NCBI RefSeq assembly: GCF_030063195.1
Contig: NZ_JASISS010000001.1
Span: forward strand, 124,001-188,000
Reading direction: 5' to 3'
Origin: Cryobacterium sp. PH31-AA6
Lineage (GTDB): Bacteria; Actinomycetota; Actinomycetes; Actinomycetales; Microbacteriaceae
DNA: 64,000 nucleotides
Below are positions 29,653 through 48,696 of this stretch, piece by piece. The notes below the pieces were generated by a model that saw nothing but the letters and a program-made list of their open reading frames with translations, was not told where the DNA came from and did no database searches. A program made the position numbers and the translations under genes. Position 1 is the stretch's first letter. Every line of letters starts with the position of its first letter.

Positions 29653-30666
29653 CTAACTGGCGCGGACCGGTGCCGGGCGCCCGTCGCCGCGAAGCGACGC
29701 CGCGTGCGCGCTCACCATGAGGTACACCGACCGCACGGCGATGCTACCGATCAACAGGGTGACCGCCGCCAGTATGAGGAGTCCCCAGGCCTGCTCGCCG
29801 GGAGCCTCGGCCAGGTCCAGCCAGTGCATTGCGTAGGTGCCGCTCGACGCGGCCGTGAACGTGAAGGCCCAGAAGCCGAGCGTGAACGACAGCCGCCAGT
29901 AGGTGACGATCATGGCCAGCTGCACGCCGATGAGCAACACGAAGGTGCCGACCAGCAGGTGCTGCATGGTGTCGAGCCGGCCCCCGTTCACCGCGAACCA
30001 GGCGTTGCCGGCGACGGCCGGCGGGGCAGACCAGATCGCGAACGTGGGGCGGAGCGGGGCGGGCAACGCGTGGCGGAAGGCCGTTCGACCGAGGATGATC
30101 GTGCCAAGGATCACCCAGAAGAGCAGGCCGACCCCGACCCCCGCCATGCCGGCCTCCGGCCAGCCCAGGATCGCGGCGGACTGGCCGGCGATCAGGAAGG
30201 CGGCAACGGTGGGCAACAGGTAGCCGGCGTGCACGGCGTCGAGATTGTTCTCGCGCACCGCCAGCTGGGCCAGGAAACGTGAGCCGAGCACGAGCACCAG
30301 GGCGATGCAGACGAGGATGAGCGGCCGGGCGACGAGCGGGTAGTCAGCGGCGAAATGGGCGCCGATAAGCATTCCCGTCGTCGGTGCGAGGGAGGCGAAT
30401 GGTCCCTGGATCGAGTCGTCGATGTCCCCGAGAATCCGCCCACCGCGGTTGTGGCTGCGCACGAGGTAGTTGCCGATGGCTAACACCCAGACGATGAGCG
30501 CAAGGAGCCACAGCGCCTCGCCGACCTCGGGCGGCGTGTGCAGGGTGGCGACGGCCATCGTCCAGGTTCCGGCCAGGCCGGAAAGGCCGAATGGGATTCC
30601 CAGGCTGGTCAGGGGTGCGCGTCCGGTGGTGGCCACGCGTCGGAAAGACCATGATCGTTCGGTCAC
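29653..30666 (-). CDS. TehA/SLAC1-family (TDT) membrane transporter
   Basis: The start is taken as the GTG at 30666 because GAGGAG lies about eight bases upstream; the frame continues to 30699. The 337-residue protein is almost entirely membrane helices, about ten, with family-like segments: IPFGLSGLAGTWTMA at the first helix, FASLAPTTGMLIGAH and AFTFTAASSGTYAMHW late in the protein. SLAC1/TehA proteins are anion channels or tellurite/sulfite-type transporters. Here an anion such as nitrite could be the cargo, given the denitrification neighbours, but that is inference. A broken copy of its 3' end lies at 28739-28892. Confidence 0.82.
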   Translation of the reverse strand: MTERSWSFRRVATTGRAPLTSLGIPFGLSGLAGTWTMAVATLHTPPEVGEALWLLALIVWVLAIGNYLVRSHNRGGRILGDIDDSIQGPFASLAPTTGMLIGAHFAADYPLVARPLILVCIALVLVLGSRFLAQLAVRENNLDAVHAGYLLPTVAAFLIAGQSAAILGWPEAGMAGVGVGLLFWVILGTIILGRTAFRHALPAPLRPTFAIWSAPPAVAGNAWFAVNGGRLDTMQHLLVGTFVLLIGVQLAMIVTYWRLSFTLGFWAFTFTAASSGTYAMHWLDLAEAPGEQAWGLLILAAVTLLIGSIAVRSVYLMVSAHAASLRGDGRPAPVRAS

Positions 30667-30770
30667 AACGGGCGCTCCTCGGTTTGTTCGACCGCGCATC
30701 AGACTGGTTCACGACCACCGACAATGCTCCGGGACCACCGGGTGCCAGGGCCGCGGCGGACTCTGGTGAT

Positions 30771-31217
30771 GTGGAATCAGTGCGCACGACAGACCCGGCC
30801 CGGATCAACGAGGTCACCGAGCAGCCGTTGGACATCCCGGCGCACGTCAGCGCCGTGTCGACCGGCGCGTGCGGCGCGGTGGTCACCTTCATCGGCCAGG
30901 TGCGCGACCACGATCCCGACGCCGCCGGTCAGGTCACCGGCCTCGACTACAGCGCCCACCCGGATGCCGGCCGCATCGTCGCCGAAATCGCCGCCCGGTT
31001 CCGCGCCGAGTTCCCGCAGGTCAACCTCGCCGTGAGCCATCGGATCGGCCATCTCGACGTCGGCGACCTCGCCCTCGTCGCCGCGGTCGCGAGCGCGCAC
31101 CGGGGTGTCGTATTCCAGGTCTGCGAGAGTCTCGTCGAGGCCGTCAAGGCCGAGGTTCCGATCTGGAAGAAGCAGTACGAGGTCGACGGCTCCCACGCCT
31201 GGGTCGGTCTGGGCTGA
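30771..31217 (+). CDS. moaE: molybdopterin synthase large subunit MoaE, copy 1
   Basis: The 148-residue protein has the MoaE landmarks GACGAVVTFIGQVRDHD, a conserved ALVAAVASAHR stretch and the catalytic Lys region PIWKKQYEVDG. MoaE, with thiocarboxylated MoaD, inserts the dithiolene sulfurs into precursor Z. The GTG at 30771 aligns with the start of copy 2. At the promoter position it has GACTCT where copy 2 has the better -10 box TACTCT, so copy 1 may be poorly expressed from this site. From 30800 onward it is nearly identical to copy 2 at 32626-33099. Confidence 0.92.
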   Translation: MESVRTTDPARINEVTEQPLDIPAHVSAVSTGACGAVVTFIGQVRDHDPDAAGQVTGLDYSAHPDAGRIVAEIAARFRAEFPQVNLAVSHRIGHLDVGDLALVAAVASAHRGVVFQVCESLVEAVKAEVPIWKKQYEVDGSHAWVGLG

Positions 31218-31272
31218 GCGCACACGAAGCATCCGTTTATTAAACGAACGTGTACCCTCTTAATTAGCGAGG
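30800..31272 (+). repeat. 473-bp direct repeat, copy 1
   Basis: This segment matches 32682-33154 with a constant offset of 1882 bases and about six or seven mismatches, roughly 98.5% identity. It spans most of moaE, its stop, a palindrome and an AT-rich TTAATTAGCGAGG block. Similarity ends abruptly after GAGG. The high identity in non-coding sequence points to recent duplication or gene conversion. Confidence 0.92.
31234..31246. promoter_or_regulatory. palindrome CGTTTATTAAACG, copy 1
   Basis: A 13-bp inverted repeat (CGTTTA-T-TAAACG) lies 17 bases after the moaE stop in an AT-rich island. It has the form of a repressor operator. Here it precedes only the response-regulator fragment; the second copy precedes an intact operon. 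Confidence 0.45.
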
Positions 31273-31309
31273 CGGTTTCCGGCGGCCTCAGTGCGGGTGC
31301 GCATTGAGC

Positions 31310-31435
31310 CGGGTCTGGGGCTATGACTTCGACCCCGGATCGAACATCGTGGATGTCTACGTCGTCTACCTACGGGCGAAGTTCGGCGCCGCGCGGATCG
31401 AAACGGTCAGAGGAATGGGCTACCGGCTGCGCTGA
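31310..31435 (+). pseudogene. C-terminal fragment of an OmpR-family response regulator
   Basis: The translation contains [20 protein letters not shown], then [20 protein letters not shown] and a TGA. This is the recognition-helix and wing portion of an OmpR/PhoB winged-helix DNA-binding domain. No receiver domain or start exists upstream; the moaE repeat abuts it. It is the truncated tail of a two-component regulator gene, cut by the duplication event. Confidence 0.8.
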
Positions 31436-31449
31436 GCCGGTAGCCCATT
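31414..31449 (+). terminator. perfect 14-bp stem-loop after response-regulator fragment
   Basis: AATGGGCTACCGGC pairs perfectly with GCCGGTAGCCCATT around an eight-base loop that contains the fragment's TGA stop. The stem uses coding sequence for its left arm. It could still end transcription from moaE copy 1 and, being symmetric, from the opposing secreted-protein gene. Confidence 0.7.
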
Positions 31450-31469
31450 TCCGTGGAGCTGGGGACAGG

Positions 31470-31973
31470 TCAGTCGTCGCTGCCGTCGTCGCTGCCGTCG
31501 TCGTCGTCACTCGCGTCGTGGCCGTCTTTCACGTCTTTCTCGTCGTGGGCGGCCGGGACGGCAGGGGTGGCCGGAGTCGCCGCGTGGTCTTCGCCGTCTT
31601 CGTGGTTCGCCGGCGTGGCGGGAATGGCCGGGGTCGCGGCGTGCTCGGAGCGCTCGTGCTCGGCGTCCTCGCCTGCCTCGTCCGTCGCCTGCTCATCCTC
31701 GCTCACCTCTACCTCGGGGGTTGAGGTGCTGCTGTCATCGGCGGCGTCATCGGCGACATCATCGGCGACATCGGCGACATCATCGGCGACATCGGGGGTG
31801 TCCGTTTCGTCGACCGCGTCGTCGGTGACCGATTCACTCGACGTGGCCACCGGGGTGAGATCGACGCTCCCGTGGCCGGGGTTCGCCTGGGCCGCGACGA
31901 TGCCGACCGACATCAGGCCGGCGAGACCAAGGGAGGCAAGGACGATGGAGTGCTTCTTCGTCATCTTCAACAT
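31470..31973 (-). CDS. secreted acidic low-complexity protein
   Basis: The 167-residue protein opens with MLKMTKKHSIVLASLGLAGLMSVGIVAAQA, a signal peptide nearly the same as that of the 28952-29515 paralogue. The mature region is strongly acidic, with DVADD-type repeats, and then the shared block HAATPAIPATPA ... AATPATPAVPA. The tail is Asp/Ser-rich (DASDDDDGSDDGSDD). GAAAGG precedes the start, as in the paralogue, and upstream DNA is also similar. A cation-binding or hydrated cell-surface role is conceivable but unproven. Confidence 0.7.
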   Translation of the reverse strand: MLKMTKKHSIVLASLGLAGLMSVGIVAAQANPGHGSVDLTPVATSSESVTDDAVDETDTPDVADDVADVADDVADDAADDSSTSTPEVEVSEDEQATDEAGEDAEHERSEHAATPAIPATPANHEDGEDHAATPATPAVPAAHDEKDVKDGHDASDDDDGSDDGSDD

Positions 31974-32107
31974 GAACGGGCCTTTCGTTAGCGCCGGATG
32001 AGCCGGCGGCTGGAAGCTGGTGGAATCTCGTTACGCTCTTACTCTCGGTTGTCAGGATAAGGCGTGAAGGAGAAAATCGTGAGAGGTTTCTTAGGTTCGC
32101 GTGTGGG

Positions 32108-32380
32108 TTAGTCGTTGCCGCCGGAATTGCCAAGGTCGACAGGGCGGTTGCTCTTGTCGCTCCTGCCGGTCCTCTCGCTCGTCGCGCTGCTGCCGTCCGA
32201 ATCGTCGTCGTGGTCATCGACGACGACCGGGGCAGGGGCGGGAACTAGAGCAGGGTCGGGCTGCACCGCGGACGATGACGAGTCCGTGCCCGACGTGTCC
32301 GAGTCTCCGCGCGGCGGGGCAGTGGGCTGGGACGCGGCACCCGCTTGCCCGGTGTCGTTGTGTTCACGCTCATCCTGCCC
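32108..32380 (-). pseudogene. remnant of an acidic Pro/Ser-rich open frame without a start
   Basis: On the minus strand an open frame ends in VDLGNSGGND and a TAA at 32108. It has Asp/Ser-rich composition (VVVDDHDDDSDGSS) like the neighbouring secreted proteins. No usable start codon or signal peptide is found upstream, although the frame stays open for several hundred bases. It may be the tail of a third member of the family. The rest of the gap to moaE copy 2 (32381-32610) shows nothing recognisable. Confidence 0.35.
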
Positions 32381-32613
32381 TCCACGATTCGGCCCGCGGG
32401 GCCGCAGTGTCGTGGGGGCTGCAGTGTCGCGGCCGGATCGGTGCTGTGCGCAGGCCTGGCTTGATCCGAGGAGAAGCGCGCGAAGCGCGCATGAGAGTGT
32501 TCTTAGCCACGAACCGGGCGCATTGCCGTCGCCAGCGTGGCCCGTCCGCCGACCGCGCAGTCAGTCGGCGCACGCCGCCGCCGATTCTCCGGAACACCGT
32601 GCCTGCCCTGGCG

Positions 32614-32619
32614 TACTCT
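32614..32619 (+). promoter_or_regulatory. -10 box for leaderless moaE copy 2
   Basis: TACTCT ends six bases before the GTG at 32626. The equivalent site in copy 1 (30759-30764) is GACTCT, which loses the key first T of a -10 box. Confidence 0.5.
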
Positions 32620-32625
32620 GGTGCT

Positions 32626-33099
32626 GTGGATTCAGGACGCACGACCGAACAAGCCTCGATGGCAGGGCCTTCCGACGCGGGCCGGATCAACGAGGTCACC
32701 GAGCAGCCGTTGGACATCGCGGCGCACGTCAGCGCCGTGTCGACCGGCGCGTGCGGCGCGGTTGTCACCTTCATCGGCCAGGTGCGCGACCACGATCCCG
32801 ACGCCGCCGGTCAGGTCACCGGCCTCGACTACAGCGCCCACCCGGATGCCGGCCGCATCGTCGCCGAAATCGCCGCCCGGTTCCGCGCCGAGTTCCCGCA
32901 GGTCAACCTCGCCGTGAGCCATCGGATCGGCCATCTCGACGTCGGCGACCTCGCCCTCGTCGCCGCGGTCGCGAGCGCGCACCGGGGTGTCGCATTCCAG
33001 GTCTGCGAGAGTCTCGTCGAGGCCGTCAAGGCTGAGGTTCCGATCTGGAAGAAGCAGTACGAGGTCGACGGCTCCCACGCCTGGGTCGGTCTGGGCTGA
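32626..33099 (+). CDS. moaE: molybdopterin synthase large subunit MoaE, copy 2
   Basis: This 157-residue copy has the same MoaE core as copy 1 (FIGQVRDHD, AHRGVAFQVCESLVEAVKAE, PIWKKQYEVDG). Within the shared region only two or so residues change, such as PAHVS to AAHVS and VVFQ to VAFQ. Its N terminus is longer by about nine residues. The leaderless -10 box is intact, so this may be the main expressed copy. The partner moaD and other cofactor genes lie 21 kb away at 54105-58432, so moaE is uncoupled from them. It precedes the denitrification operon on the same strand. Confidence 0.93.
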   Translation: MDSGRTTEQASMAGPSDAGRINEVTEQPLDIAAHVSAVSTGACGAVVTFIGQVRDHDPDAAGQVTGLDYSAHPDAGRIVAEIAARFRAEFPQVNLAVSHRIGHLDVGDLALVAAVASAHRGVAFQVCESLVEAVKAEVPIWKKQYEVDGSHAWVGLG

Positions 33100-33219: not shown

Positions 33220-33552
33220 ATGGCCGCCGAACCCATCACCCTGAGCGCCCAGCGCACCGGACACCCGGAGGCGGCCGACAGCGCCGCGCCGGAGCACGAC
33301 TGCCAGTGCGGCCACGATGAGGCCGAGACGATCGTGCTCGACGGGCGCACCATCCCGCACGCGGTTCGCCACGCCGCGATCTTCGGCGCCCTCGAAGCGA
33401 TCCAGCTCGGCTTCGCCCTCGACCTGATCGCACCGCATGACCCGCTGCCGCTGATCGCGCAGTTGGAGAAGGCGCGACCGGGCGCATTTGCGCTGTCCTA
33501 CGTCGAGCGCGGCCCGGAGGCCTGGCAGGTGCGTTTCACCCGCGTCGCCTAG
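33220..33552 (+). CDS. DUF2249 domain protein
   Basis: The 110-residue protein follows a strong GAGGAGGA ribosome-binding site. After a His/Cys-bearing N terminus (EHDCQCGHDE), residues about 35-110 form a DUF2249 domain with VLDGRTIPHAVRHAAIFGALEAI, the PHDPLPLIAQLE segment and the closing Y-V-E-R-GPEAWQVRFTR. DUF2249 proteins occur next to nitrite and nitric oxide reductase genes and hemerythrin-type proteins in denitrifiers; the biochemical role is unsettled. It is the first gene of the nirK operon. Confidence 0.85.
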   Translation: MAAEPITLSAQRTGHPEAADSAAPEHDCQCGHDEAETIVLDGRTIPHAVRHAAIFGALEAIQLGFALDLIAPHDPLPLIAQLEKARPGAFALSYVERGPEAWQVRFTRVA

Positions 33553-33613: not shown

Positions 33614-34837
33614 GTGAGAAGCTCCACCCCCGCACCGCAGGACGCCGGCCGCCCCGCGCGCAGCACCGTTACCGCCGCACCGAGGCGCACCGTGGGTCGT
33701 CTCATCCTGTTGCTGGCCGGGGGCATCTCCCTGCTGGCCGGGCTCGACGGGGCGCTCCTGCTGCTCGGGCTTTCCGCTCCGGTCGTGAGCTCCCGCCTGG
33801 CCGATGTGCATGGGCCCCTGATGGTCTTCGGTTTCGTCGGCACCGTCGTGGTGCTCGAGCGGGCGGTCGCGATCCGGCGGCGCTGGGCCTTCCTGGCACC
33901 CGCGCTGCTCGGTGCCGGCGGCCTGGCCCTGCTGTCGCCGCTTCCCCTCCCGGTCGGCCAGCTGGCCTTCGTGGCCGGTTCGGCCCTGTTGCTGCCGATC
34001 TACCGGGTGATCTGGCGGCGGGCGCCGTCCACCTCCACCGCGGTGCAGGCACTCGGCGCCCTGCTCGGGCTGATGGCGACGGTGCTCTGGGTGGGCGGGG
34101 TGCCCACCCCGCGCCTGATCCCGGCGATGAGCCTCTATCTCGTGCTCACGATCGCGGGGGAGCGGCTCGAGCTGGCCCGGATCTCGCCGTCGGTCGACGA
34201 TCGTGCCGAGGCCCGGCTGCTCGGGGTGTCCCTGGCGATGGTCGCCGGAGTCGTCGTCGCCCTGTTCTGGCCGCCGATCGGCTACCCGCTGCTCGGGATC
34301 GGGATGTTGGCCCTCGTCGCCTGGCTGTTCCGGCACGACGTGGCGACCCGGCTGATCAGGTCCCGAGGACTGCCCCGGTACATGGCCGCTTGCCTGCTGG
34401 CCGGCTACGGCTGGCTGGTCGTCGCAGGGGCAAGCTGGCTCATCCTCGGTCCGATCTTTTCGGGACCGGCCTACGATGCCGTGCTGCATTCGATCTTCCT
34501 CGGCTTCGTGGTATCGATGATCATGGCGCACGCCCCGACGATCCTGCCCGCCGTTCTGCGCCGGCCGTTGCCCTACCGCCCGGTGATGTACGGCCCGGCG
34601 GTGCTCCTGCACGTCTCTCTCCTCGCGCGGATCCTGCTCGGTGACGCCCATGGCCTGGCCGGACTGGTCGAGTGGGGCGGCGTGGTCAACATCGTTGCCG
34701 TGCTCTCCTTCGTGGTCGTCGCCGTCGCCTCGGTGCTGCTCGGGATGCCGCGGCCTCCCTCTGCCGAGCCGTCCGCCCCTCGCTCGACAACAACATCGAC
34801 ATCAGCATCGACAACAGCATTGGACGTTCCCCGATGA
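33614..34837 (+). CDS. NnrS-like multi-spanning membrane protein
   Basis: The start is placed at the GTG at 33614, since the frame upstream overlaps DUF2249; a weak AGGAAA precedes it. The 407-residue protein has about eleven to twelve hydrophobic helices. Conserved-looking His positions within membrane segments include DVHGPLMVFGF, LHSIFLGFVVSMIMAHAPTILPAVL and LHVSLLARILLGDAHG. These resemble NnrS, a haem/copper membrane protein linked to NO stress in denitrifiers, but the match is by eye only. The stop overlaps the nirK start (ATGA), showing tight coupling. It may work with the membrane half of the NirK fusion, which has similar architecture. Confidence 0.65.
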   Translation: MRSSTPAPQDAGRPARSTVTAAPRRTVGRLILLLAGGISLLAGLDGALLLLGLSAPVVSSRLADVHGPLMVFGFVGTVVVLERAVAIRRRWAFLAPALLGAGGLALLSPLPLPVGQLAFVAGSALLLPIYRVIWRRAPSTSTAVQALGALLGLMATVLWVGGVPTPRLIPAMSLYLVLTIAGERLELARISPSVDDRAEARLLGVSLAMVAGVVVALFWPPIGYPLLGIGMLALVAWLFRHDVATRLIRSRGLPRYMAACLLAGYGWLVVAGASWLILGPIFSGPAYDAVLHSIFLGFVVSMIMAHAPTILPAVLRRPLPYRPVMYGPAVLLHVSLLARILLGDAHGLAGLVEWGGVVNIVAVLSFVVVAVASVLLGMPRPPSAEPSAPRSTTTSTSASTTALDVPR

Positions 34838-37434
34838 GCCGCAGGCTCTGGCACATTCTCACCGGCGTCCTCGTGCCGGCCTGGCTCTTCCTCACCCTCA
34901 TCGCCGTGCTGATCCATCGTTTTCTGCCCGTGGCCCCCTGGCTGATGGTGCACCTGCTCTTTCTCGGCGCGGTCAGCAGTGCCATCCTGATCTGGAGCCA
35001 GCACTTCGCGGACACCCTTCTTCGGCGCCAGGCCGCCGGCGGGCGGACGTCCCTCGGCCTCCGACTCGCGGCGCACACCGTGGGGGCGATCCTCGTGATC
35101 ACCGGCATCGTCGGCGGCTGGTGGCCGGTCGTCCTGGTCGGCGGCAGCCTGGTCGCGGGCAACGCGGTGGCCCATGCGGCGATCCTCCTGGCCCAGTCGA
35201 AGGGTTCTCTCCCCGGCCGGTTCGCCCCCCTGGTCCGCTACTACATCGCCGCCGGCGTCGCGCTGGCCCTCGGTGTGACCGCCGGGGTGCTCATGGCCCG
35301 CACCGACGTCGACGGCGAACCCTTCGAGCGCCTGTTCATCGCGCACATCGGACTGAACCTGCTCGGCTGGGTCGGCCTGACCGTGGTCGGCACGGTGGCC
35401 CTGCTCTGGCCGACCGTGCTGCACGCCAGGGTGCAGACGACCAGGGCGTCGGCACCCGGCACGCTGTCCCTCTTCCTCGGCGGGCTTTCCCTGCTCGTCG
35501 TCGGCTGCCTCGCCGACCTCCGCCTGGTCACCGCGCTCGGAGTCGCCGTCTACCTGGTCGGTCTCGTCCTCGTCATGATCGAGGTCGTGCGCCTCGGGCG
35601 CGCTTCCCCGGCGGTGACCTTCGCCGGCTGGAGCCTCGGCTCGGCTCTGGCCTGGTTCGCCCTGTGCGTGCTCGGCTTCGGCCTCCTCGTGGCGCTCGCC
35701 CCCGACTGGGTCGGCGCGGCCGACCGGCTCGATCAACTCATCCCCGTCTTCGCGGTCGGCTTCGCCGCCCAGATCCTGCTCGGTGCCCTCAGCTATCTGC
35801 TGCCCGTGGTGCTCGGCGGTGGCCCCCGGGTCGCGAAGGCCACCGCCCGCGAGCTCGACCGCGGCGGGCTGTTCCGGGTGATCGTGGTCAACCTGGGCCT
35901 GGTCGTCTACCTGCTCCCGGTCACCAGTCCGGTCAAGGTCACGCTCTCCCTCCTCGTGGTCGGCACCCTCGCCTCATTTCTCGTTCTGATGACCCGCGCC
36001 ATGCGGGTGAACCGACGGCTGCGAGCGGACATCGACCCCTCCGTTCCGCCCCCGCCCGCCGCGCCCGCGGCCACCCCTCCGCGCCGCACCGGCGCCGTCC
36101 TCGCGGCGACCGGGGTCCTTCTCCTCGCCGTCACCGGCGGGGTGGCCCTTGACCCGGCGGCCGCAGGACTCGCGGGCACCGCGGCATCCGTGCCGTCGAC
36201 CGGCCACACGACCACGGTCGACGTGGTGATGAAGGACACCCGGTTCACCCCGGACTCGGTCACGGTGCCGGTCGGCGACACCCTGGTGATCAACTTGAGC
36301 AACGAGGACGACATGGTGCACAACCTCGTCCTGGAGAACGGCGTGCTGTCGGGGTCGGTCGTTCCCGGAGCCAGCACGACGGTCGATGTCGGCGTCGTCG
36401 GCGCGGACATCGCCGGGTGGTGTTCGATCGCCGGGCACAAGCTCCTCGGGATGGTGTTCGATGTCGTCGTGGAGCGCACCGCCGCCGGCACATCCTCGGA
36501 GTCGAGCGACCACGGCGGGATGACCGAGCCGCCGGGCGGGCCGTCCGCCGCCGAGGACCTCGACCTGATGAAGGCACCGCCCGCCGCCTTCGCCGCGCGG
36601 GACGCCCGGCTGGAGCCCGCGACCGCGGAGACCGTGCACACGCTCACCATGCGCGTCACGAATACGGAGACCGAGGTGTCGCCCGGCGTCACCCAGACCC
36701 TGTGGACGTACAACGGCACCGCTCCGGGGCCGACCCTGCACGGCCGGGTCGGCGACGTGTTCGACATCACCTTCGTCAACGACGGCACCATGGACCACTC
36801 GATCGACTTCCACGCCGGCGCGCTCGCCCCCGACAAGCCGATGCGCAGCATCGGCCCGGGGGAGAGCCTCTCCTATCGCTTCACGGCCACCCGCTCCGGC
36901 ATCTGGCTCTACCACTGCTCCACCATGCCCATGTCGGTGCACATCGCCAACGGCATGTTCGGCGCGGTCATCATCGACCCGCCCGGCCTGCCCGCGGTCG
37001 ACGAGGAGTACGTGCTGGTGCAGTCCGAGCTCTACCTCGGCGCGCAGGGCGGTGAGGCCGACGGCGACCGGGTGGTGACCCAGAACCCCGATCTGGTGGT
37101 CTTCAACGGTTACGCCAACCAGTACGGGGCCAGGCCTCTCGTGGCCCGAGTCGGTGAGCGGGTGCGCATCTGGGTCCTGGATGCCGGACCCAACGTCGGC
37201 AGCTCGTTCCACGTTGTCGGGGGTCAGTTCGACACCGTGTTCAAGGAGGGCGACTACTCGCTGAAAGACGGCGGCAGCACCGGCACCGGCGGCTCCCAGG
37301 TGCTCGACCTTGCGGTCGCGCAGGGCGGCTTCGTCGAGCTCAGCTTCCCCGAGGCCGGACACTATCCCTTCGTCAGCCACATCATGTCCGATGCCGAGAA
37401 GGGCGCTCGCGGAGTCGTCTCCGTACTCCCGTGA
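34834..37434 (+). CDS. nirK: copper nitrite reductase NirK fused to membrane and extra cupredoxin domains
   Basis: The 866-residue protein has three parts. Residues 1-395 form about eleven or twelve membrane helices resembling the NnrS-like neighbour. After a Pro-rich linker and another helix (418-440), residues 455-550 form a cupredoxin with a complete type 1 copper set: His496, Cys530, His535, Met540. Residues 600-866 are a two-domain NirK with type 1 ligands His655, His694-Cys695, His703 and Met708 (ligand His655, Cys695, His703, Met708). Type 2 ligands are His660, His694 and His849, and catalytic Asp658 and His793. All catalytic residues are therefore kept. It reduces nitrite to NO outside the membrane. 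The extra cupredoxin may replace a soluble electron donor. Typical NirK has about 340-380 residues. Confidence 0.9.
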   Translation: MSRRLWHILTGVLVPAWLFLTLIAVLIHRFLPVAPWLMVHLLFLGAVSSAILIWSQHFADTLLRRQAAGGRTSLGLRLAAHTVGAILVITGIVGGWWPVVLVGGSLVAGNAVAHAAILLAQSKGSLPGRFAPLVRYYIAAGVALALGVTAGVLMARTDVDGEPFERLFIAHIGLNLLGWVGLTVVGTVALLWPTVLHARVQTTRASAPGTLSLFLGGLSLLVVGCLADLRLVTALGVAVYLVGLVLVMIEVVRLGRASPAVTFAGWSLGSALAWFALCVLGFGLLVALAPDWVGAADRLDQLIPVFAVGFAAQILLGALSYLLPVVLGGGPRVAKATARELDRGGLFRVIVVNLGLVVYLLPVTSPVKVTLSLLVVGTLASFLVLMTRAMRVNRRLRADIDPSVPPPPAAPAATPPRRTGAVLAATGVLLLAVTGGVALDPAAAGLAGTAASVPSTGHTTTVDVVMKDTRFTPDSVTVPVGDTLVINLSNEDDMVHNLVLENGVLSGSVVPGASTTVDVGVVGADIAGWCSIAGHKLLGMVFDVVVERTAAGTSSESSDHGGMTEPPGGPSAAEDLDLMKAPPAAFAARDARLEPATAETVHTLTMRVTNTETEVSPGVTQTLWTYNGTAPGPTLHGRVGDVFDITFVNDGTMDHSIDFHAGALAPDKPMRSIGPGESLSYRFTATRSGIWLYHCSTMPMSVHIANGMFGAVIIDPPGLPAVDEEYVLVQSELYLGAQGGEADGDRVVTQNPDLVVFNGYANQYGARPLVARVGERVRIWVLDAGPNVGSSFHVVGGQFDTVFKEGDYSLKDGGSTGTGGSQVLDLAVAQGGFVELSFPEAGHYPFVSHIMSDAEKGARGVVSVLP

Positions 37435-37730
37435 CAATGCCCGGAGTGCTCTGGGAAAACGCTGATCGCGGCGTGTCGCACCCGGCCGTGAATTGGTCCG
37501 GTCGAATCCCGTTCCGTCGGGCTGCTGCACAAATATCGAGTCTGACCATGTTTTTATCCGTTCGTATATCGGACCGTCCGCGGATCTAATTCCATTTGTA
37601 ACTACGATCATAATTTTAAAAACGTGGTAGCTTTCAAACACCCCGCGTGACCTATCCGGGGGAGGGAACGCGGCCGCGACACTTCGGCAGTACGGCGACC
37701 TTGATCCAGGCAACAGGGAAAGGGGCCTCC
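37435..37730 (+). promoter_or_regulatory. AT-rich regulatory region upstream of norB
   Basis: This 296-bp gap contains no gene. Bases 37545-37630 are much richer in A/T than their surroundings. A CATAAT -10 candidate lies at 37609-37614, and an interrupted repeat (TATATCGGACCGTCCGCGGA) at 37565-37584. A separate promoter for norB, probably NO- or oxygen-controlled, is likely. I cannot match the elements to a known NsrR, FNR or NorR site. Confidence 0.5.
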
Positions 37731-40136
37731 GTGGTCCGATTGAAATCCAGTGCGCGGAATCTGCGTTCGGAGTTGATGGTTTCCAAGGGCTGGCTGCAGG
37801 GCGTCGCCCTGGTGATGATCTTCGGCTTCGCGGTGATGGGGTTCCTTGCCGCGATGACCTACACCGACTCGATGCCGCAGCCCAGGCAGGTCGTCGATGC
37901 ACAGGGCGCCGTCGTCTTCACCGGTGCGGAGATCACCGCGGGGCAGCAGACCTTCGTGGCGCGCGGCCTGCAGGAGTACGGCTCCATCGTCGGCCACGGC
38001 GGCTACCTCGGCCCGGACTACACCGCCGACTACCTCCGCCGCTCCGCGACCTTCGTACTCGACGCGCTGACCGAATCGGGAATCCAGGACCCGCACGGCG
38101 CCCTCGTCGAGATGATGCGCACCAACCGGTACGACAAGGACACCGGTGACCTCGTCTTCACCGATCTTCAGATCCAGGCCTTCGAGGCCGTACAGCAGCA
38201 CTACGCCGACTTCTTTGGCACTCCGACGACGGAGAACGGCCTGCTCCCCAGCGTCATCACCGATCCGGCCGACATTCACAACCTGACCGCGTTCATCGCG
38301 TGGACCTCGTGGGGCGCTGTCGCGGAACGGCCCGGACACGACTATTCGTACACGAACAACTGGCCGGCCGAGCCCCTCGTCGACAACGGCCCGACGGCGG
38401 ACATCATCGTCTGGAGCGGACTGTCCCTGGTCTCCCTGATGGTGGCCCTCGGAGGCCTGTTCGCACTGTACGGGCGTTGGAGCAAGCGGATGGGCTGGCA
38501 GCACGGCGAGGAAACCCCGCCGTTGTCCTTCCGCCAGCCCGGAACGGTCAAGGTGACGCCCGCGCAATCGGCGACAGCCTGGTTCTTCTTCGTGGTCGCG
38601 CTGATGTTCCTCGCGCAGGCCTTCCTCGGTGCCGCGGTGGAGCATTACCGGGTCGATCTGGAGGGCTTCTTCGGGCTCGACCTGGCGCAGCTGCTGCCGA
38701 TCAACCTTGCCCGCACCTGGCACGTTCAGCTCTCCCTGCTCTGGACCGCCGCCTCGTTCCTCGCCGCCGGAATCTTCCTGGCCCCGTACATCTCCGGCCA
38801 TGAACCCAAGAGACAGCACTGGCTGGCCTATGGCCTGCTCGGCGCGCTCGCCCTCGTCGTGGTCGGTTCGCTGACCGGCGAGGCCCTGAGCATCTTCGGG
38901 TTCCAGGGCGCCAAGGATTCTCCGTTCTGGGGCATGCAGTGGGAGTACATCGACTTGCCGAAGTTCTGGCAGGGGCTGCTGACCGTGGGTCTCTTCCTCT
39001 GGATCGCGATCATCTACCGGGGGATCCGTGCCCGGCTGAAGTCGGAACACCGGTTCAACCTGCCGTGGTTGTTCTTCTACTCCGGCCTGGCCATCCCGGC
39101 CTTCTACGCGGTCGGCATGCTCGCCGGCACCGAGGTCACCCTCAGCGTCGCCGAGTTCTGGCGGTTCTGGGTCGTGCATCTCTGGGTCGAGGACTTCCTC
39201 GAACTGTTCACCACGGTGATGGTGGCCTACATCTTCGTCATGCTCGGCGTGGTGCACCGCAAGATCGCGATGCAGATCATCCTGCTCGACGTGATTCTGT
39301 ATTCCGCCGGCGGCATTCTGGGCACCATGCACCACCTGTACTTCTCCGGCACCCCGGTCGAGCACATGGCGCTGGGTGCGTTCTTCTCCGCTCTGGAGGT
39401 CATTCCGTTGACCTTCCTGACGGTCGAGGCCTGGAGCTTCCTGCAACTCGGGGCCAGGCAGCAATCGCGCAGCTCCGCCCCGTTCCCGCATCGCTGGTCG
39501 GTCATGTTCCTCGTGGCCGTCGGCTTCTGGAACTTCCTTGGCGCCGGCGTCTTCGGGTTCCTGATCAACCTGCCGATCGTCTCCTACTACGAGATCGGTA
39601 CGGCCCTCACCGCCAACCACGCGCACGCCTCCATGATGGGCGTCTACGGGATGATGGGCGTCGGCCTGTCCTTGTTCGCCCTGCGCTACCTGATTCCGGC
39701 CAAGCGCTGGCCGGACAGGCTGGCCAAGATCTCGTTCTGGTCGCTCAACATCGGGTTGGCCTGGATGACCTTCGCCACCCTGTTGCCGCTCGGTGTGCTG
39801 CAGTTGTGGCACTCCGTGAACGATGGCTACTTCGAGGCCCGAAGCATGAACTTCATCACGGGCACCGGTAACACGGTGCTGGAGTGGTTGCGGATGCCTG
39901 GTGATCTGGTCTTCATCTTCGGGGGAGTCGTTCCGTTCGTCTGGATCGCCTGGCTCGGCGTGCGGTACCGGATCAAGGGCACCACCCAGGACGTCCCGAT
40001 GGAGGCGCTGTTCGTGGAGGAGCAGCCGGTGCCGGCCGTCGGCGTGGACGACGCGCCCGACTCCGGCTACGGGGCGCTCTATCGGCCCCGCAGCACCGAC
40101 GAGGCCGGCGGACCGGGCCCGATCGGGGGCGCATGA
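37731..40136 (+). CDS. norB: quinol-dependent nitric oxide reductase (qNOR)
   Basis: The GTG at 37731 follows AAAGGGG and starts an 801-residue protein. The N terminus has one membrane helix and a periplasmic cytochrome-c-like fold lacking a CxxCH haem motif, as in qNOR (GQQTFVARGLQEYGSIVGHGGYLGPDYT). Fourteen or so helices follow, including NLARTWHVQLSLLW, HLWVEDFLELFTTVMVAYIF, GTMHHLYFSG and NHAHASMMGVYGMMG, which supply the haem and FeB histidines and the conserved Glu residues. It reduces NO to N2O using quinol directly, so no norC is needed. It is the first gene of a four-gene unit. Confidence 0.95.
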   Translation: MVRLKSSARNLRSELMVSKGWLQGVALVMIFGFAVMGFLAAMTYTDSMPQPRQVVDAQGAVVFTGAEITAGQQTFVARGLQEYGSIVGHGGYLGPDYTADYLRRSATFVLDALTESGIQDPHGALVEMMRTNRYDKDTGDLVFTDLQIQAFEAVQQHYADFFGTPTTENGLLPSVITDPADIHNLTAFIAWTSWGAVAERPGHDYSYTNNWPAEPLVDNGPTADIIVWSGLSLVSLMVALGGLFALYGRWSKRMGWQHGEETPPLSFRQPGTVKVTPAQSATAWFFFVVALMFLAQAFLGAAVEHYRVDLEGFFGLDLAQLLPINLARTWHVQLSLLWTAASFLAAGIFLAPYISGHEPKRQHWLAYGLLGALALVVVGSLTGEALSIFGFQGAKDSPFWGMQWEYIDLPKFWQGLLTVGLFLWIAIIYRGIRARLKSEHRFNLPWLFFYSGLAIPAFYAVGMLAGTEVTLSVAEFWRFWVVHLWVEDFLELFTTVMVAYIFVMLGVVHRKIAMQIILLDVILYSAGGILGTMHHLYFSGTPVEHMALGAFFSALEVIPLTFLTVEAWSFLQLGARQQSRSSAPFPHRWSVMFLVAVGFWNFLGAGVFGFLINLPIVSYYEIGTALTANHAHASMMGVYGMMGVGLSLFALRYLIPAKRWPDRLAKISFWSLNIGLAWMTFATLLPLGVLQLWHSVNDGYFEARSMNFITGTGNTVLEWLRMPGDLVFIFGGVVPFVWIAWLGVRYRIKGTTQDVPMEALFVEEQPVPAVGVDDAPDSGYGALYRPRSTDEAGGPGPIGGA

Positions 40137-40954
40137 TGGGCCCGATCGACCCGGAAGTCTGGTTCGCGCTGGCCTACGGCGGCTTCCTGCTGCTCGTGGC
40201 CCACACGCTCGACATCCTGGCCCGGCGCACGGCGACGAGCACCACCAGTGCTCGTTCCGGCGGGTTCAGCTACCACGAGGACCATGACGCATGGAAGTGT
40301 TCAGAGGACCAGTGGCTCTGGCCGATCTCCTTCGACCCGGAAAACCGGGTGACCCGCTATCGCGCGTCGCCCACGGTCTGCAATCCGTGTCCGGTCAAGT
40401 ACGGCTGCACTACCGGCCACTCAGGGCGGGAGGTCGTGCGCAATATCGACTCCTGGCCCAGCTCGGAGGCGGAGCGATTCCACCGCGGGATCGCCTGCGC
40501 CGTGGTGGTGCTCGGAGTCGTCTGGCCCCTCGCCGTCATGTTCCAGGGGCGAAGCCCCCTGGAGCTGACGGTGCTGGGGGCGGCGGCGGTCGCCATTCTG
40601 GCGGGAAGCTGGCCGCTCTGGTCACACCTGCGCCGTGCCCCAGCACGGTTCCCCGACCACCTGAAGACCGAGGGCCTCGACGAGAGCGTCGCGGCCCGCG
40701 CAATCACGGCCGCTGCTGAACTCGCCAGGCAGAGCGGGTACGGCAGCATCAGGAAGACGGGACCGCGACCGGTACAGATCGAACCGTACGCGAGTTCCAG
40801 ACCGGCATCGGACGACGATTCCGGATCAGGCACGACGAAGGGAAACACAGTGCGCGCCGCATTCTCGGCCCGGTGGGCCGAACTCGAGAAGGAAGCCGAC
40901 CCGGCAGGCACCGTGCCCACCGACGACTGGAGCCGAAGGGTGAACCCATCATGA
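40133..40954 (+). CDS. uncharacterised membrane protein with four-cysteine motif, behind norB
   Basis: The 273-residue protein overlaps norB by four bases. A first helix (residues 8-28) is followed by a soluble loop with aromatic- and Cys-rich sequence: Cys56 in DAWKCSEDQWLWPISF, then Cys83, Cys86 and Cys92 in TVCNPCPVKYGC, followed by His96. Two more helices lie near 118-138 and 142-165, with a soluble tail. Four cysteines in C-x26-C-x2-C-x5-C spacing could bind an Fe-S cluster or zinc. I recognise no named family. Coupling to qNOR suggests a maturation or electron-transfer role, which is inference. Confidence 0.75.
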   Translation: MMGPIDPEVWFALAYGGFLLLVAHTLDILARRTATSTTSARSGGFSYHEDHDAWKCSEDQWLWPISFDPENRVTRYRASPTVCNPCPVKYGCTTGHSGREVVRNIDSWPSSEAERFHRGIACAVVVLGVVWPLAVMFQGRSPLELTVLGAAAVAILAGSWPLWSHLRRAPARFPDHLKTEGLDESVAARAITAAAELARQSGYGSIRKTGPRPVQIEPYASSRPASDDDSGSGTTKGNTVRAAFSARWAELEKEADPAGTVPTDDWSRRVNPS

Positions 40955-44161: not shown

Positions 44162-44839
44162 ATGACGTCGACTCACCCCGCGTCGAGCTACCGCACGCTC
44201 GCCTCGTTCAGCAGGATCCAACTGCTGTTCTTCCTGCAGCAACGCGGAACCATGACGGTGGGTGACCTGGCCGAGGCCAGTGGGCTGCACCACAACACGA
44301 CCCGGGAGCACCTGCACCGATTGATCGGTGACGGTTTCGTCACCTGCACGCCCGAGGCCAAGGACTGCAAGGGGCGTCCGAGGATGCTCTACAGCGCCTC
44401 GGCCGGCCAGGCCGACGGCGACGACCCCGTTCGGGCGCAGAAGGCCGAGGCCGCCGAACTCCACGGCGACCAGGTGCGCCGGATGCTGCGGGTCGAGGCC
44501 GTCATCCACTCGCCGCTGCAACGGCAGCTGGACGCCCTCGACGACCACCTGGACGAGTCAGGATTCGACGCGACCCTCGATGTCGACGGAGAACACGTGC
44601 ACCTGCACGAATGCCCGTACATCGACATGGTCAGGCTGCATCCCGAGGTTTGCCGCGTGCACTTCGGACTGCTGAAGGGCCTGCTCGAGGTGACCCGCGG
44701 TCCGCTCAGCGCGGACGCCCTGCACCCGCTGGTCGAAGAGAACACCTGCACCCTCGACCTGCACCGGTCCGACGAGGAACCGGTATTCGCACCCCGACCG
44801 GAGCCGGCAATCATTTATCACGGTGTTTCCGGCTTGTAG
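44162..44839 (+). CDS. HTH regulator with SufR-like cysteine motif, second of two
   Basis: The 225-residue protein follows a strong AAAAGGAG site. Its winged helix (MTVGDLAEASGLHHNTTREHLHRLIGDGFV and KGRPRMLY) parallels the first regulator. Cys151 and Cys164 lie in ECPYIDMVRLHPEVCRVHFGLLKG and Cys196 in ENTCTLDL, the same arrangement with one residue less between the first two. Two extra Cys (62, 69) sit near the wing. It reads directly into narG 78 bases downstream, making it a probable cluster-based switch for narGHJI. Confidence 0.82.
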   Translation: MTSTHPASSYRTLASFSRIQLLFFLQQRGTMTVGDLAEASGLHHNTTREHLHRLIGDGFVTCTPEAKDCKGRPRMLYSASAGQADGDDPVRAQKAEAAELHGDQVRRMLRVEAVIHSPLQRQLDALDDHLDESGFDATLDVDGEHVHLHECPYIDMVRLHPEVCRVHFGLLKGLLEVTRGPLSADALHPLVEENTCTLDLHRSDEEPVFAPRPEPAIIYHGVSGL

Positions 44840-44916
44840 CCCTTTTTCCGGCCGGTGAGACTGAACCCCAAGGTGGTTGTCGCCGTGGCGACCCCGGGCA
44901 GTGCAAGGGGTACGCA

Positions 44917-47900
44917 GTGAAACCACTCAAGGATTCCGCCTTCTCAAAGCCGGCCAGGCCGGCGAAGCCGGGGATCGACGGCCCGATCGACGACACGATC
45001 CTGAAACTCGGACGCTTCCTGCGCCGCGGCAAGGCCTCGCCCGACCTGCGCTCGGTCTTCCTTACGGGCGGCCGGGACGCCGACACGTTCTACCGTGACC
45101 GCTGGACCCATGACAAGGAGGTGCGGTCCACCCACGGCGTGAACTGCACCGGCTCCTGCTCCTGGAAGGTGTACGTCAAGGACGGCATCATCACCTGGGA
45201 GACCCAGCAGACCGACTACCCCACCGTCGGCCCCGACTCTCCCGAATACGAACCGCGCGGCTGCCCGCGGGGCGCCGCCTTCAGCTGGTACACCTACTCA
45301 CCCACCCGGGTGAAGTACCCGTACGTGCGCGGGGTGCTGCTCGACCTCTACCGCGCGGCGAAGGCCCGCACCGGCGACCCGGTGCTCGCCTGGGCCGAAG
45401 TCACGGGTGACCCGGAGAGTGCGCGTGCCTACAAGAGCGCCCGCGGCAAGGGTGGCCTGGTGCGGGCCAGCTGGGATGAGGCGGCCGAGATCGTCGCCGC
45501 GGCGCACGTGCACACCATCAGGAAGTACGGTCCGGACCGCATCGCCGGATTCTCGCCCATTCCCGCCATGTCGATCGTGTCGCAGGGGGTGGGCAACCGG
45601 TTCATCTCCATGCTCGGCGGCACCATGCTCTCCTTCTACGATTGGTACGCCGACCTGCCCGTCGCGTCCCCGCAGGTGTTCGGCGATCAGACCGACGTGC
45701 CGGAGTCGGCCGACTGGTGGAACTCGTCCTACCTGATCATGTGGGGGTCCAACGTGCCGGTCACCCGAACCCCCGACGCGCACTTCATGGTCGAGGCCCG
45801 CTACCGGGGACAGAAGGTCATCACCGTCTCACCCGACTACGCCGACAACTCCAAGTTCGCCGACGAATGGCTGGCCGTGCACCCCGGCACCGACGGTGCG
45901 CTCGCGCTGGCCATGGGTCACGTCGTGCTCAGGGAGTTCCTGGTCGACCGGCGCACCCCCCGCTTCGTCGACTACATGAAGCGCTACAGCGACTCCGCCT
46001 ATCTGATCAGCCTGACCAAGCGCGGCGACGCCTGGGTGCCCGGCAAGTTCGTCACCGCGGATGCCCTGCCCGGCATGGCCGCGACCGTCTCGAGCGCGGC
46101 GTTCAAGCCCGTGCTCCTCGACCAGGACGGCCAGGTCGTCGTGCCAGGCGGCTCGATCGGCCACCGATTCTCCGAGGCCGACGTCGGCAAGTGGAACCTC
46201 GACCTCGAGGGTGTCGACCCGCTCCTGTCGATCGCGGATGCCCCCGACTACGACCAGGCATCCGTCGCCATCGACATGCCCAGGTTCGATCTGGCACCCG
46301 AGACCGACGAGGTCGGCGAGCAGCACGCGGGAGGCGCGGGCATCATCCGTCGCGGCGTACCCGTGCGGATGGTGGCCGGCCAACTGGTCACGACCGTGTT
46401 CGACCTGCTGCTCGCCCAGTACGGCGTGGGCCGCCCCGGCCTGCCCGGCGTCTGGCCGACCGGGTACGACGACGCCTCCTCGCCCGGCACCCCCGCCTGG
46501 CAGGAAGCGATCACCTCGGTGCCGAGGCAGGCCGCCGAACGGATCGGCCGGGAGTTCGCCCAGAACGCCGAGGACTCCGGCGGCCGCTCGATGATCCTGA
46601 TGGGAGCGGGCACCAACCACTGGTTCCACTCCGACACCATCTACCGCGCGTTCCTCGCCCTGACCACCATGACCGGGTGCCAGGGCGTCAACGGCGGCGG
46701 CTGGGCGCACTACGTCGGCCAGGAGAAGGTGCGCCCGCTCACCGGCTACGGCCAGTACGCCTTCGGACTGGACTGGGTGCGACCGCCCCGCCAGATGATC
46801 GGCACCGGCTTCTTCTACCTCGCCACCGACCAGTGGCGCTACGACGGTCTCTCCGCCGACACCCTGTCCAGCCCCCTCGGCGCCGGATCCTTCACGGGCC
46901 GCACCACCGCGGACTGCCTGGTCGAATCGACCAAGCGCGGCTGGATGCCCGGGTATCCCACCTTCAACCGCAACTCGCTCGACCTCGTCGACGACGCGGT
47001 CGCCGCCGGTGTCGACCCGGCCCAGTACGTCGTCGAGTCCCTCGGCGACGGCACCCTCGAATACGCGGTGGAGGACCCCGACGCCCCGGAGAACTTCCCC
47101 CGGGTGCTCGTGGTCTGGCGGGCCAACGTGATCGGCTCCTCCGGCAAGGGCAACGAATACTTCCTCAAGCACCTGCTCGGCACCACGAGCGCCGTGCGGG
47201 CGCCGGAGTCGCCGCCGGAGAAGCGACCCAAGACCATGAAGTGGCACGAGACCGCCCCTGAGGGCAAGCTCGACCTGATGGTCACCAGCGACTTCCGGAT
47301 GACGTCGACCACCATCTTCAGCGACGTGGTGCTGCCGCCGGCCACCTGGTACGAGAAGAACGACCTCTCGACGACGGACATGCATCCGTTCATCCACTCG
47401 TTCAACCCGGCGATCACCCCGCCGTGGCAGGCCAAGACCGACTTCGATATCTTCCACATCCTCGCCGAGAAGATTTCCGAGATGTCGGTCGACCACCTCG
47501 GGGTGCGCCAGGACCTCGTCGCCGTGCCGTTGCTGCACGACACCCCGGATGCGATGAGCGCCCCACACGGCATCGTCGAATACGACCAGGTGCTGGTGCC
47601 CGGCGTCACCATGCCCAAGCTCGTCGTGGTCGAACGCGACTACCCGGCCTTCGCGGCCCGGCTCGGCGCACTGGGCCCGCTCACCGAGAAGCTTGGCATG
47701 GTCACCAAGGGCGTCAAGTTCAACCCCGACGTCGAGGTTGCCTACCTTGCCAAGAAGAACGGGCTAGTGGAGAGCGGCCCCGCCGCGGGCCGGCCACAGC
47801 TGAAGACCGCCATCCAGGCCTGCGAAATGGTGCTGGCGCTGTCCGGCACGACCAACGGTCGCCTCGGCACCCAGGGATTCCGGCAGATGGAGGAGCGCAC

Positions 47901-48696
47901 GGGCATGAAACTGGCGCACCTGGCCAGCGACAACGAGGGCAGACGGTTCTCCTACCCTGATGTTCAGGGTGCGCCGGTCCCGGTGCTCACCTCACCGGAA
48001 TGGTCGGGCAGCGAGCACGGCGGCCGCCGTTACAGCGCGTTCACGATCAACGTGGAGCACCTCAAGCCCTGGCACACCCTGACCGGGCGGCAACACTTCT
48101 ACCTCGACCACGACTGGATGATCGAGCTGGGGGAGACCCTGCCGATCTTCCGGCCGCCGCTGGACATGCACCGCCTGTTCGACGATTCGATCGTCGGGTC
48201 CACCGCGGCGACCGGGGCGACCGGCTCGAAGGGTCGGGCCGAGGTGGCCGTGCGCTACCTCACTCCGCACTCGAAGTGGTCGATCCACTCCGAATACCAG
48301 GACAATCTGATGATGCTCTCGCTGTCCCGCGGCGGCCCCACCATCTGGATGTCCCCGCTCGACGCCGACAAGATCGGCGTGCGCGACAACGAGTGGATCG
48401 AGTCCTACAACCGCAACGGTGTCGTCGTCGCCAGGGCGATCGTCTCGCACCGGATGCCGGAGGGCACCGTGTACATGTACCACGCGAAGGATCGCACGAT
48501 CAACGTGCCGATCGCGGAGACCAGCGGCATGCGCGGTGGCACGAATAACTCGCTCACCCGGATCCTGCTCAAGCCCAGCCACCTGATCGGCGGCTACGCC
48601 CAGCTGTCCTTCGCCTTCAACTACCTCGGCCCGACCGGGAACCAACGCGACGAGGTCACCGTGATCCGTCGACGCAGCCAGGAGGTTGAGTACTAA
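44917..48696 (+). CDS. narG: respiratory nitrate reductase alpha subunit NarG
   Basis: The start is the GTG at 44917, seven bases after AAGGGG, giving 1259 residues (E. coli NarG has 1247). The FS0 [4Fe-4S] ligands are His73, Cys77, Cys81 and Cys116 in STHGVNCTGSCSW and RGCPRGA. The molybdenum-ligand Asp region FYDWYADLPVASPQVFGDQTDVPESADWWNS is present, as are conserved GGGWAHYVGQEKVRP and HSKWSIHSEYQDN. It reduces nitrate to nitrite on the cytoplasmic side using a bis-MGD cofactor. The absence of a twin-arginine signal fits NarG rather than a periplasmic or archaeal-type enzyme. Confidence 0.97.
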   Translation: MKPLKDSAFSKPARPAKPGIDGPIDDTILKLGRFLRRGKASPDLRSVFLTGGRDADTFYRDRWTHDKEVRSTHGVNCTGSCSWKVYVKDGIITWETQQTDYPTVGPDSPEYEPRGCPRGAAFSWYTYSPTRVKYPYVRGVLLDLYRAAKARTGDPVLAWAEVTGDPESARAYKSARGKGGLVRASWDEAAEIVAAAHVHTIRKYGPDRIAGFSPIPAMSIVSQGVGNRFISMLGGTMLSFYDWYADLPVASPQVFGDQTDVPESADWWNSSYLIMWGSNVPVTRTPDAHFMVEARYRGQKVITVSPDYADNSKFADEWLAVHPGTDGALALAMGHVVLREFLVDRRTPRFVDYMKRYSDSAYLISLTKRGDAWVPGKFVTADALPGMAATVSSAAFKPVLLDQDGQVVVPGGSIGHRFSEADVGKWNLDLEGVDPLLSIADAPDYDQASVAIDMPRFDLAPETDEVGEQHAGGAGIIRRGVPVRMVAGQLVTTVFDLLLAQYGVGRPGLPGVWPTGYDDASSPGTPAWQEAITSVPRQAAERIGREFAQNAEDSGGRSMILMGAGTNHWFHSDTIYRAFLALTTMTGCQGVNGGGWAHYVGQEKVRPLTGYGQYAFGLDWVRPPRQMIGTGFFYLATDQWRYDGLSADTLSSPLGAGSFTGRTTADCLVESTKRGWMPGYPTFNRNSLDLVDDAVAAGVDPAQYVVESLGDGTLEYAVEDPDAPENFPRVLVVWRANVIGSSGKGNEYFLKHLLGTTSAVRAPESPPEKRPKTMKWHETAPEGKLDLMVTSDFRMTSTTIFSDVVLPPATWYEKNDLSTTDMHPFIHSFNPAITPPWQAKTDFDIFHILAEKISEMSVDHLGVRQDLVAVPLLHDTPDAMSAPHGIVEYDQVLVPGVTMPKLVVVERDYPAFAARLGALGPLTEKLGMVTKGVKFNPDVEVAYLAKKNGLVESGPAAGRPQLKTAIQACEMVLALSGTTNGRLGTQGFRQMEERTGMKLAHLASDNEGRRFSYPDVQGAPVPVLTSPEWSGSEHGGRRYSAFTINVEHLKPWHTLTGRQHFYLDHDWMIELGETLPIFRPPLDMHRLFDDSIVGSTAATGATGSKGRAEVAVRYLTPHSKWSIHSEYQDNLMMLSLSRGGPTIWMSPLDADKIGVRDNEWIESYNRNGVVVARAIVSHRMPEGTVYMYHAKDRTINVPIAETSGMRGGTNNSLTRILLKPSHLIGGYAQLSFAFNYLGPTGNQRDEVTVIRRRSQEVEY

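Follow-up and report, generated by a model that had tools for sequence, protein, structure and literature searches.

How the copper nitrite reductase NirK receives its electrons in Gram-positive bacteria is poorly settled, the usual donors to the enzyme being soluble cytochrome c or azurin-type proteins. The question is raised by a gene of Cryobacterium sp. PH31-AA6 that lies in a window of 64,000 nucleotides, the whole stretch of DNA analysed here (contig NZ_JASISS010000001.1, positions 124,001 to 188,000 of the forward strand), and that joins a membrane domain, a cupredoxin and a complete NirK in one chain, which likely draws its electrons directly from the membrane, with no soluble partner as donor. 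We tentatively read this chain as a one-protein quinol:nitrite oxidoreductase and give that reading slightly less than an even chance; quinol:acceptor oxidoreductase activity is suggested by a conserved pair of His residues in the membrane domain and by genomes that carry the fusion and appear to be free of cytochrome bc1. The gene and its parts are as follows, in window coordinates (TM, transmembrane helix).

34834..37434, plus strand: fused gene of 866 amino acids, membrane domain, cupredoxin and NirK
34834..36033, plus strand: residues 1-400, 12-helix domain with the predicted fold of haem-copper oxidase subunit I
34951..34953, plus strand: His40 in TM2, predicted haem ligand from conservation, in the outer half by predicted topology
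35344..35346, plus strand: His171 in TM6, predicted haem ligand from conservation and hhalign register, in the outer half by predicted topology
36088..36150, plus strand: residues 419-439, predicted thirteenth transmembrane helix leading to the outside domains, from the model and Lys plus Arg counts
36181..36477, plus strand: residues 450-548, cupredoxin domain carrying a single type 1 copper ligand set (H496, C530, H535, M540; PF13473)
36553..37431, plus strand: residues 574-866, two-domain copper nitrite reductase with type 1, type 2 and catalytic residues

One conserved chain with a complete NirK

Inspection of the open reading frame at 34834-37434 showed one unbroken frame of 866 codons, in which Pfam and NCBIfam profile matches placed the cupredoxin at residues 450-519 and the nitrite reductase at residues 574-863. 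The type 1 ligands of the cupredoxin are conserved in 45-46 of 46-48 ungapped alignment rows. The copper and catalytic residues of NirK are complete (H655, D658, H660, H694, C695, H703, M708, H793, H849). They comprise the two His, Cys and Met of a type 1 site, the three His of a type 2 site and the catalytic Asp and His, set in the two-cupredoxin fold of copper nitrite reductases, with ligand roles as listed in PMC4770552. Copper nitrite reductases are homotrimers whose type 2 copper lies between subunits, and the models used here are of single chains. The chain scored 162.8 bits against TIGR02376, short of the equivalog cut-off of 296.3, which is a naming threshold and no biochemical criterion.

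A full-length, stop-free match to the fusion was present in 47 of 394 genomes of a class-wide sample, its own genome included, and three more of the 394 (G060, G618 and G579) carried it in two pieces of one frame. A scan of genome contigs yielded at least 528 relatives, the best 80 of which were kept as a sample leaning to close kin; these came from Cryobacterium, Cellulomonas, Microbacterium, Mycobacterium, Rhodococcus, Streptomyces, Nocardioides, Brevibacterium and others. The three parts share a single open frame at 79 of the 80 loci, NirK being split off by a stop at the remaining one (L073). On both counts the in-frame, three-part chain described in the original prediction is real and widely conserved. 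We conclude that the 866-residue chain is one open reading frame with named domains and ligand residues, a conserved fusion and conserved H40 and H171.

The three-part architecture is already in print (PMC4770552); what is new is the predicted identity of the membrane domain and the prediction of a haem and a quinol. In the accessible text of that source, long actinobacterial NirK proteins such as that of Propionibacterium acnes are described as about 900 residues long, with a 400-residue N-terminal membrane domain, a cupredoxin with the motif CX4HX4M, and NirK, an architecture from which we found no difference in the present chain. The same portion of text calls the membrane domain 'of unknown function' and gives no fold. 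The three-domain NirK of Hyphomicrobium denitrificans (2dv6, 6tfd) likewise has a cupredoxin N-terminal to NirK and was the best PDB sequence match over residues 472-863, but it lacks the membrane domain, and over the whole chain it differs from our model by a root mean square deviation of 10.6, with the cupredoxin placed differently and the linker poorly predicted.

Lys and Arg number 11 in the inside loops against 2 in the outside loops, and we therefore predict that the N terminus is inside, that there are 13 helices and that the cupredoxin and NirK are outside. H40 and H171 are predicted to lie in the outer half of the membrane, on the cupredoxin side.

A predicted oxidase-like fold with a conserved His pair

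Structure prediction assigns the membrane domain the fold of haem-copper oxidase subunit I, and the predicted model shows the 12 helices of that fold. A domain-only model was used for the fold search because a search with the whole chain was filled by NirK chains, and the structural alignment with oxidases was unshifted across the whole domain. Unlike the structural alignment, sequence matches to oxidases were offset by one or two pseudo-repeats, which we take as repeat similarity and not permutation. A permuted alignment was tried and set aside, as cyclically shifted membrane profiles gave the same local match to CtaD and hence no proof. A weak, independent sequence signal came from PF00115, which matched the membrane part in 4 of 240 homologues among the matches listed (best E 1.3e-8, at 34.6 bits just under the cut-off of 34.8); in a PF00115 scan of 60 genomes, two stand-alone relatives of the domain were matched below the cut-off (G001:C10, E 4.5e-6; G013:C629, E 2e-5). 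Searches against PHROGs gave no match. Our literature search, which left subscription papers mostly outside, turned up no assignment of an oxidase fold to this domain, and an earlier one may exist.

When the membrane profile was compared with CtaD by hhalign, the score was 29.0 and H171 was paired with the leading His of the HFH motif in TM10; controls reached 21.7 at best in 40 column shuffles, and 21.0 and 23.7 when one profile was reversed, and as a single comparison the match had a modest probability of 4.9 and an E-value of 0.008. Reversal of both profiles, expected to resemble the true comparison, scored 26.0. Within the domain, TM1-4 aligned with TM5-8 as an internal repeat (E 1.2e-5, score 35.5 against 18.3 for the best of 60 shuffles) that sets H40 at residue 173, two past H171 and in the register of the second His, and the stand-alone rows alone reproduced this register. 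When single inner helices were compared by global hhalign, registers were obtained only for TM6 with oxidase TM10 and among the domain's own repeats. Oxidase helices could not be registered with one another by this method, and the haem His of oxidase TM2 is placed solely by a proline 22 residues on.

Haem-copper oxidase subunit I carries six His ligands in TM2, TM6, TM7 (two) and TM10 (two). The membrane domain does not have this set: His is absent from its TM7 (208-226) and TM10 (292-327), so that, compared with cbb3 CcoN and NorB, the TM7 HH and TM10 HxH are missing while H40 and H171 are kept, and a catalytic centre is not expected. H40 is conserved in 84 of 84 and H171 in 86 of 86 ungapped rows, H114 in 82 of 85 and H57 in 75 of 85. 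Among 14 distant stand-alone relatives of about 29-38% identity, H40, H171, R129, Y137, G178, T187, W274, G309, Q313 and P324 are each present in all 14, H114 in one and H57 in five. The stretch of residues 54-114 (34993-35175) holds W54, H57, R77 and H114, found in most fused rows and mostly not in the distant stand-alone relatives; by helix position these lie in the inner half and are a candidate quinol or proton site.

The two His of the oxidase HxH face opposite pockets. In the accessible text of PMC10256718, they ligate different haems, high-spin and low-spin, in oxidases and nitric oxide (NO) reductases. Because one His of each register occurs on successive repeats of the membrane domain, H40 and H171 would be turned towards one another in the space between TM2 and TM6, which we infer to be a haem site. 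The membrane domain thereby gains a predicted fold and two candidate haem ligands.

A putative quinol route to NirK

On this reading, an oxidase-like ancestor would have lost its site for reducing O2 or NO (TM7 without His, TM10 without HxH) and would hold one low-spin haem b by H40 and H171 near the outer face, in a pocket related by pseudo-threefold symmetry to the usual low-spin haem pocket. Menaquinol would reduce the haem b, which would pass electrons to the type 1 copper of the cupredoxin, standing at the position of oxidase subunit II, and from there they would reach the type 1 and then the type 2 copper of NirK, where nitrite would be reduced to NO; the quinol-type NO reductase (qNOR) of the adjacent gene would remove the NO. 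A more specific proposal is that an oxidase or NO reductase subunit I without its catalytic centre, its sole haem relocated to a third, normally empty pseudo-symmetric pocket, forms the quinol-oxidising arm of the fused NirK, which would make the chain the first NO-forming quinol:nitrite oxidoreductase, bypassing bc1 and cytochrome c. We regard this as possible but doubtful; if true, this would be a case of an oxidase core turned into a module for electron entry, its haem having moved. The quinol-dependent NO reductase is, in the accessible text of PMC10256718, likewise a single-chain quinol enzyme of denitrification, differing in that it has a haem/iron active centre of its own and no copper NirK.

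Genomes lacking a bc1 cytochrome b bear on this route. Two genomes rated 100% complete, G650 and G820, carry the fusion and gave no match to PF13631 (QcrB type), which a direct quinol route would explain. In G650, 25 of the 26 fusion residues checked are retained (the exception being W179, here F), PF00115 matches only a qNOR, with 53% identity to that of the window, and cytochrome bd is present. One genus thus appears to run the fusion without bc1 cytochrome b in two of six listed species, the other four having a PF13631 match. The original prediction had proposed that electrons enter at the membrane, possibly from quinol, and this is still the best explanation, to which these two genomes add support; it had overlooked the predicted oxidase fold. 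The electron route of actinobacterial nitrite reduction becomes directly testable.

Several observations weigh against a quinol-oxidising chain. PF13631 was matched in 96 of 98 distinct fusion-bearing genome entries, one of them weakly (G414, E 9e-12, a fragmented assembly), and a bcc (cytochrome bc1) complex may be the donor in most fusion-bearing genomes. This census (32 of 32, 33 of 34 and 31 of 33 in its batches, G650 being in both of the last two) includes at least one genome apparently entered twice and three with partial fusion matches only (G799, G801, G849), and it is non-discriminating for most genomes. The two exceptions belong to one genus, and a donor other than quinol is possible in both. 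Cytochrome c was not found in G650 with PF13442, which gave two matches in the window's genome, in a search that did not extend to PF00034 types, and G820 was searched for PF13631 only, not for oxidases. As to the fold and the haem, 51 family members that had not been selected by a known PF00115 annotation gave no match to that profile at E 0.1, P0064 and P0093 match it at different offsets, and the TM2 profile aligned with no inner oxidase helix, so that the register of H40 rests on the internal repeat; H40 and H171 may lie in different pockets. Stand-alone relatives without a nirK neighbour imply that the membrane domain somehow works without NirK. The extra cupredoxin of Hyphomicrobium NirK is reported, in the accessible text of PMC4770552, to be too distant and not needed.

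Alternative roles of the membrane domain

The frequency of PF13631 matches would fit a membrane domain without a redox group that serves as an anchor docking the chain at the bcc complex, whose haem c would feed the cupredoxin, as would the rarity of free soluble cytochrome c in Actinobacteria. We consider this unlikely, though it deserves weight: the two complete fusion genomes without a PF13631 match speak against it, and an anchor has no need to keep H40, H171 and Q313 in all 14 distant relatives. Still less probable is that the domain handles NO like NnrS-type proteins, binding it, channelling it or protecting the enzyme while electrons come from elsewhere, since the domain is missing catalytic metal ligands, its family has no Pfam NnrS match (no PF05940 match among 55 members at E 0.1), and the NnrS-like gene upstream was not found at 11 of 80 loci, one of which has only 122 bases of upstream sequence.

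A role in assembly, with the domain aiding copper or haem loading of the cupredoxin and NirK and not electron transfer, seems very unlikely to us; stand-alone relatives do occur beside nirK-like genes (L034, L035) or near a NosZ-like gene (L043), both kinds of product requiring copper, but the domain has only two Cys (225 and 278), no Cys/Met-rich motif was seen in it by eye, and a chaperone fused to every copy of its enzyme would be unusual. We give almost no weight to an internal start yielding two proteins, one of them the separate soluble NirK from near residue 440 that the original prediction had named as its refutation. TM13 resembles a former signal peptide, and related cupredoxin-NirK genes without the membrane domain exist (L061-L065), but the stretch from residue 393 to residue 436 has no start codon, no ribosome-site-like motif was found before other possible starts up to residue 466, a later start would leave NirK without an export signal, and the fusion is widely conserved.

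Origin of the fusion and the upstream NnrS-like gene

The original prediction had derived the membrane domain by duplication and capture of the gene just upstream.

33614..34837, plus strand: NnrS-like membrane protein of 407 amino acids with invariant H66, H292 and H306

The fused gene starts inside the stop of this gene, and because of the 4-base overlap ATGA the two are probably translationally coupled. A homologue lies upstream of the fusion at 69 of 80 loci, 38 with the exact 4-base overlap and 27 more within 60 bases. Its likeness to the NnrS family (PF05940) lies in being a multi-helix membrane protein with conserved His (H66, H292 and H306 are invariant in 37 of 37 homologues) and in several UniRef kin named 'NnrS family protein'; 4 of the 37 homologues matched PF05940 weakly (best E 0.036), whereas the membrane domain of the fusion gave no match even at E 10. 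A PF05940 search of the window's own genome found no match, as did a control search. Against CtaD the upstream family scored 21.5 in hhalign, not above shuffle level. H292 stands 20 residues ahead of the invariant P312, a spacing that matches the register of the low-spin haem His in TM10 of oxidases; the NnrS-like protein may keep the canonical haem pocket, with the fused domain using another.

Descent of the domain from this gene did not hold up: the two have no common BLASTP match at 1e-3, and hhalign between them was weak (probability 14; score 25.4, with 17 for the reversed control). The domain does have stand-alone homologues at about 29-38% identity, some of them next to a nirK-like gene: such homologues lie directly beside a separate one at L034 and L035, near one at L033, and beside an NnrS-like gene at L039. 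In a tree of 54 rows, midpoint-rooted for drawing only, 13 of 14 distant stand-alone rows are placed outside the fused class, the fourteenth (L036) being attached to it at a fork that is not resolved, while ten nearer stand-alone rows fall among or beside fused rows; the fused label changes at least five times on well supported branches. The simplest reading is that a resident membrane protein was fused to an exported cupredoxin-NirK whose signal peptide became TM13, followed by some later separations, repeated fusions or fragment predictions.

At L043:628-6684, a stand-alone relative of the oxidase fold clusters with a NosZ-like protein and an Rrf2 regulator, and the membrane domain may serve nitrous oxide (N2O) reductase too. 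A clear denitrification context was not seen at other loci among the 20 stand-alone neighbourhoods scanned.

Gene neighbourhood

The surroundings of the fused gene look like a nitrate-to-N2O cluster, with a SLAC1-type channel, two MoaE genes, a DUF2249 gene and the NnrS-like gene upstream, and a qNOR-type gene, a 273-residue protein of unknown type, a Band 7 protein, a radical SAM protein, two helix-turn-helix (HTH) regulators and NarG downstream.

33220..33552, plus strand: DUF2249 protein, a recurrent neighbour
37647..40136, plus strand: nitric oxide reductase of the quinol type, judged from its NorB cytochrome c-like and COX1 domains, for the pathway step after NirK
44611..48696, plus strand: NarG, respiratory nitrate reductase alpha chain, open reading frame from the first start codon

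The true start of NarG is probably later, the first start overlapping the preceding HTH gene. The nearest named kin of both the fused protein (P0001) and the upstream protein are from Cryobacterium. DUF2249 was matched somewhere in 59 of 80 loci, and in many loci it recurs with an HTH regulator beside the fused gene; the two are perhaps a dedicated regulatory or sensing pair. Homologues of both the 273-residue protein and the Band 7 protein that come after qNOR (40133-41757) follow the qNOR of G650 (L217), where qNOR and nirK lie on separate contigs, and the two are possible qNOR accessory proteins. The two MoaE genes lie close together at 30591-33099, near the nitrate/nitrite cluster, and one of them, as called from its first start codon, has an N-terminal extension of about 200 residues.

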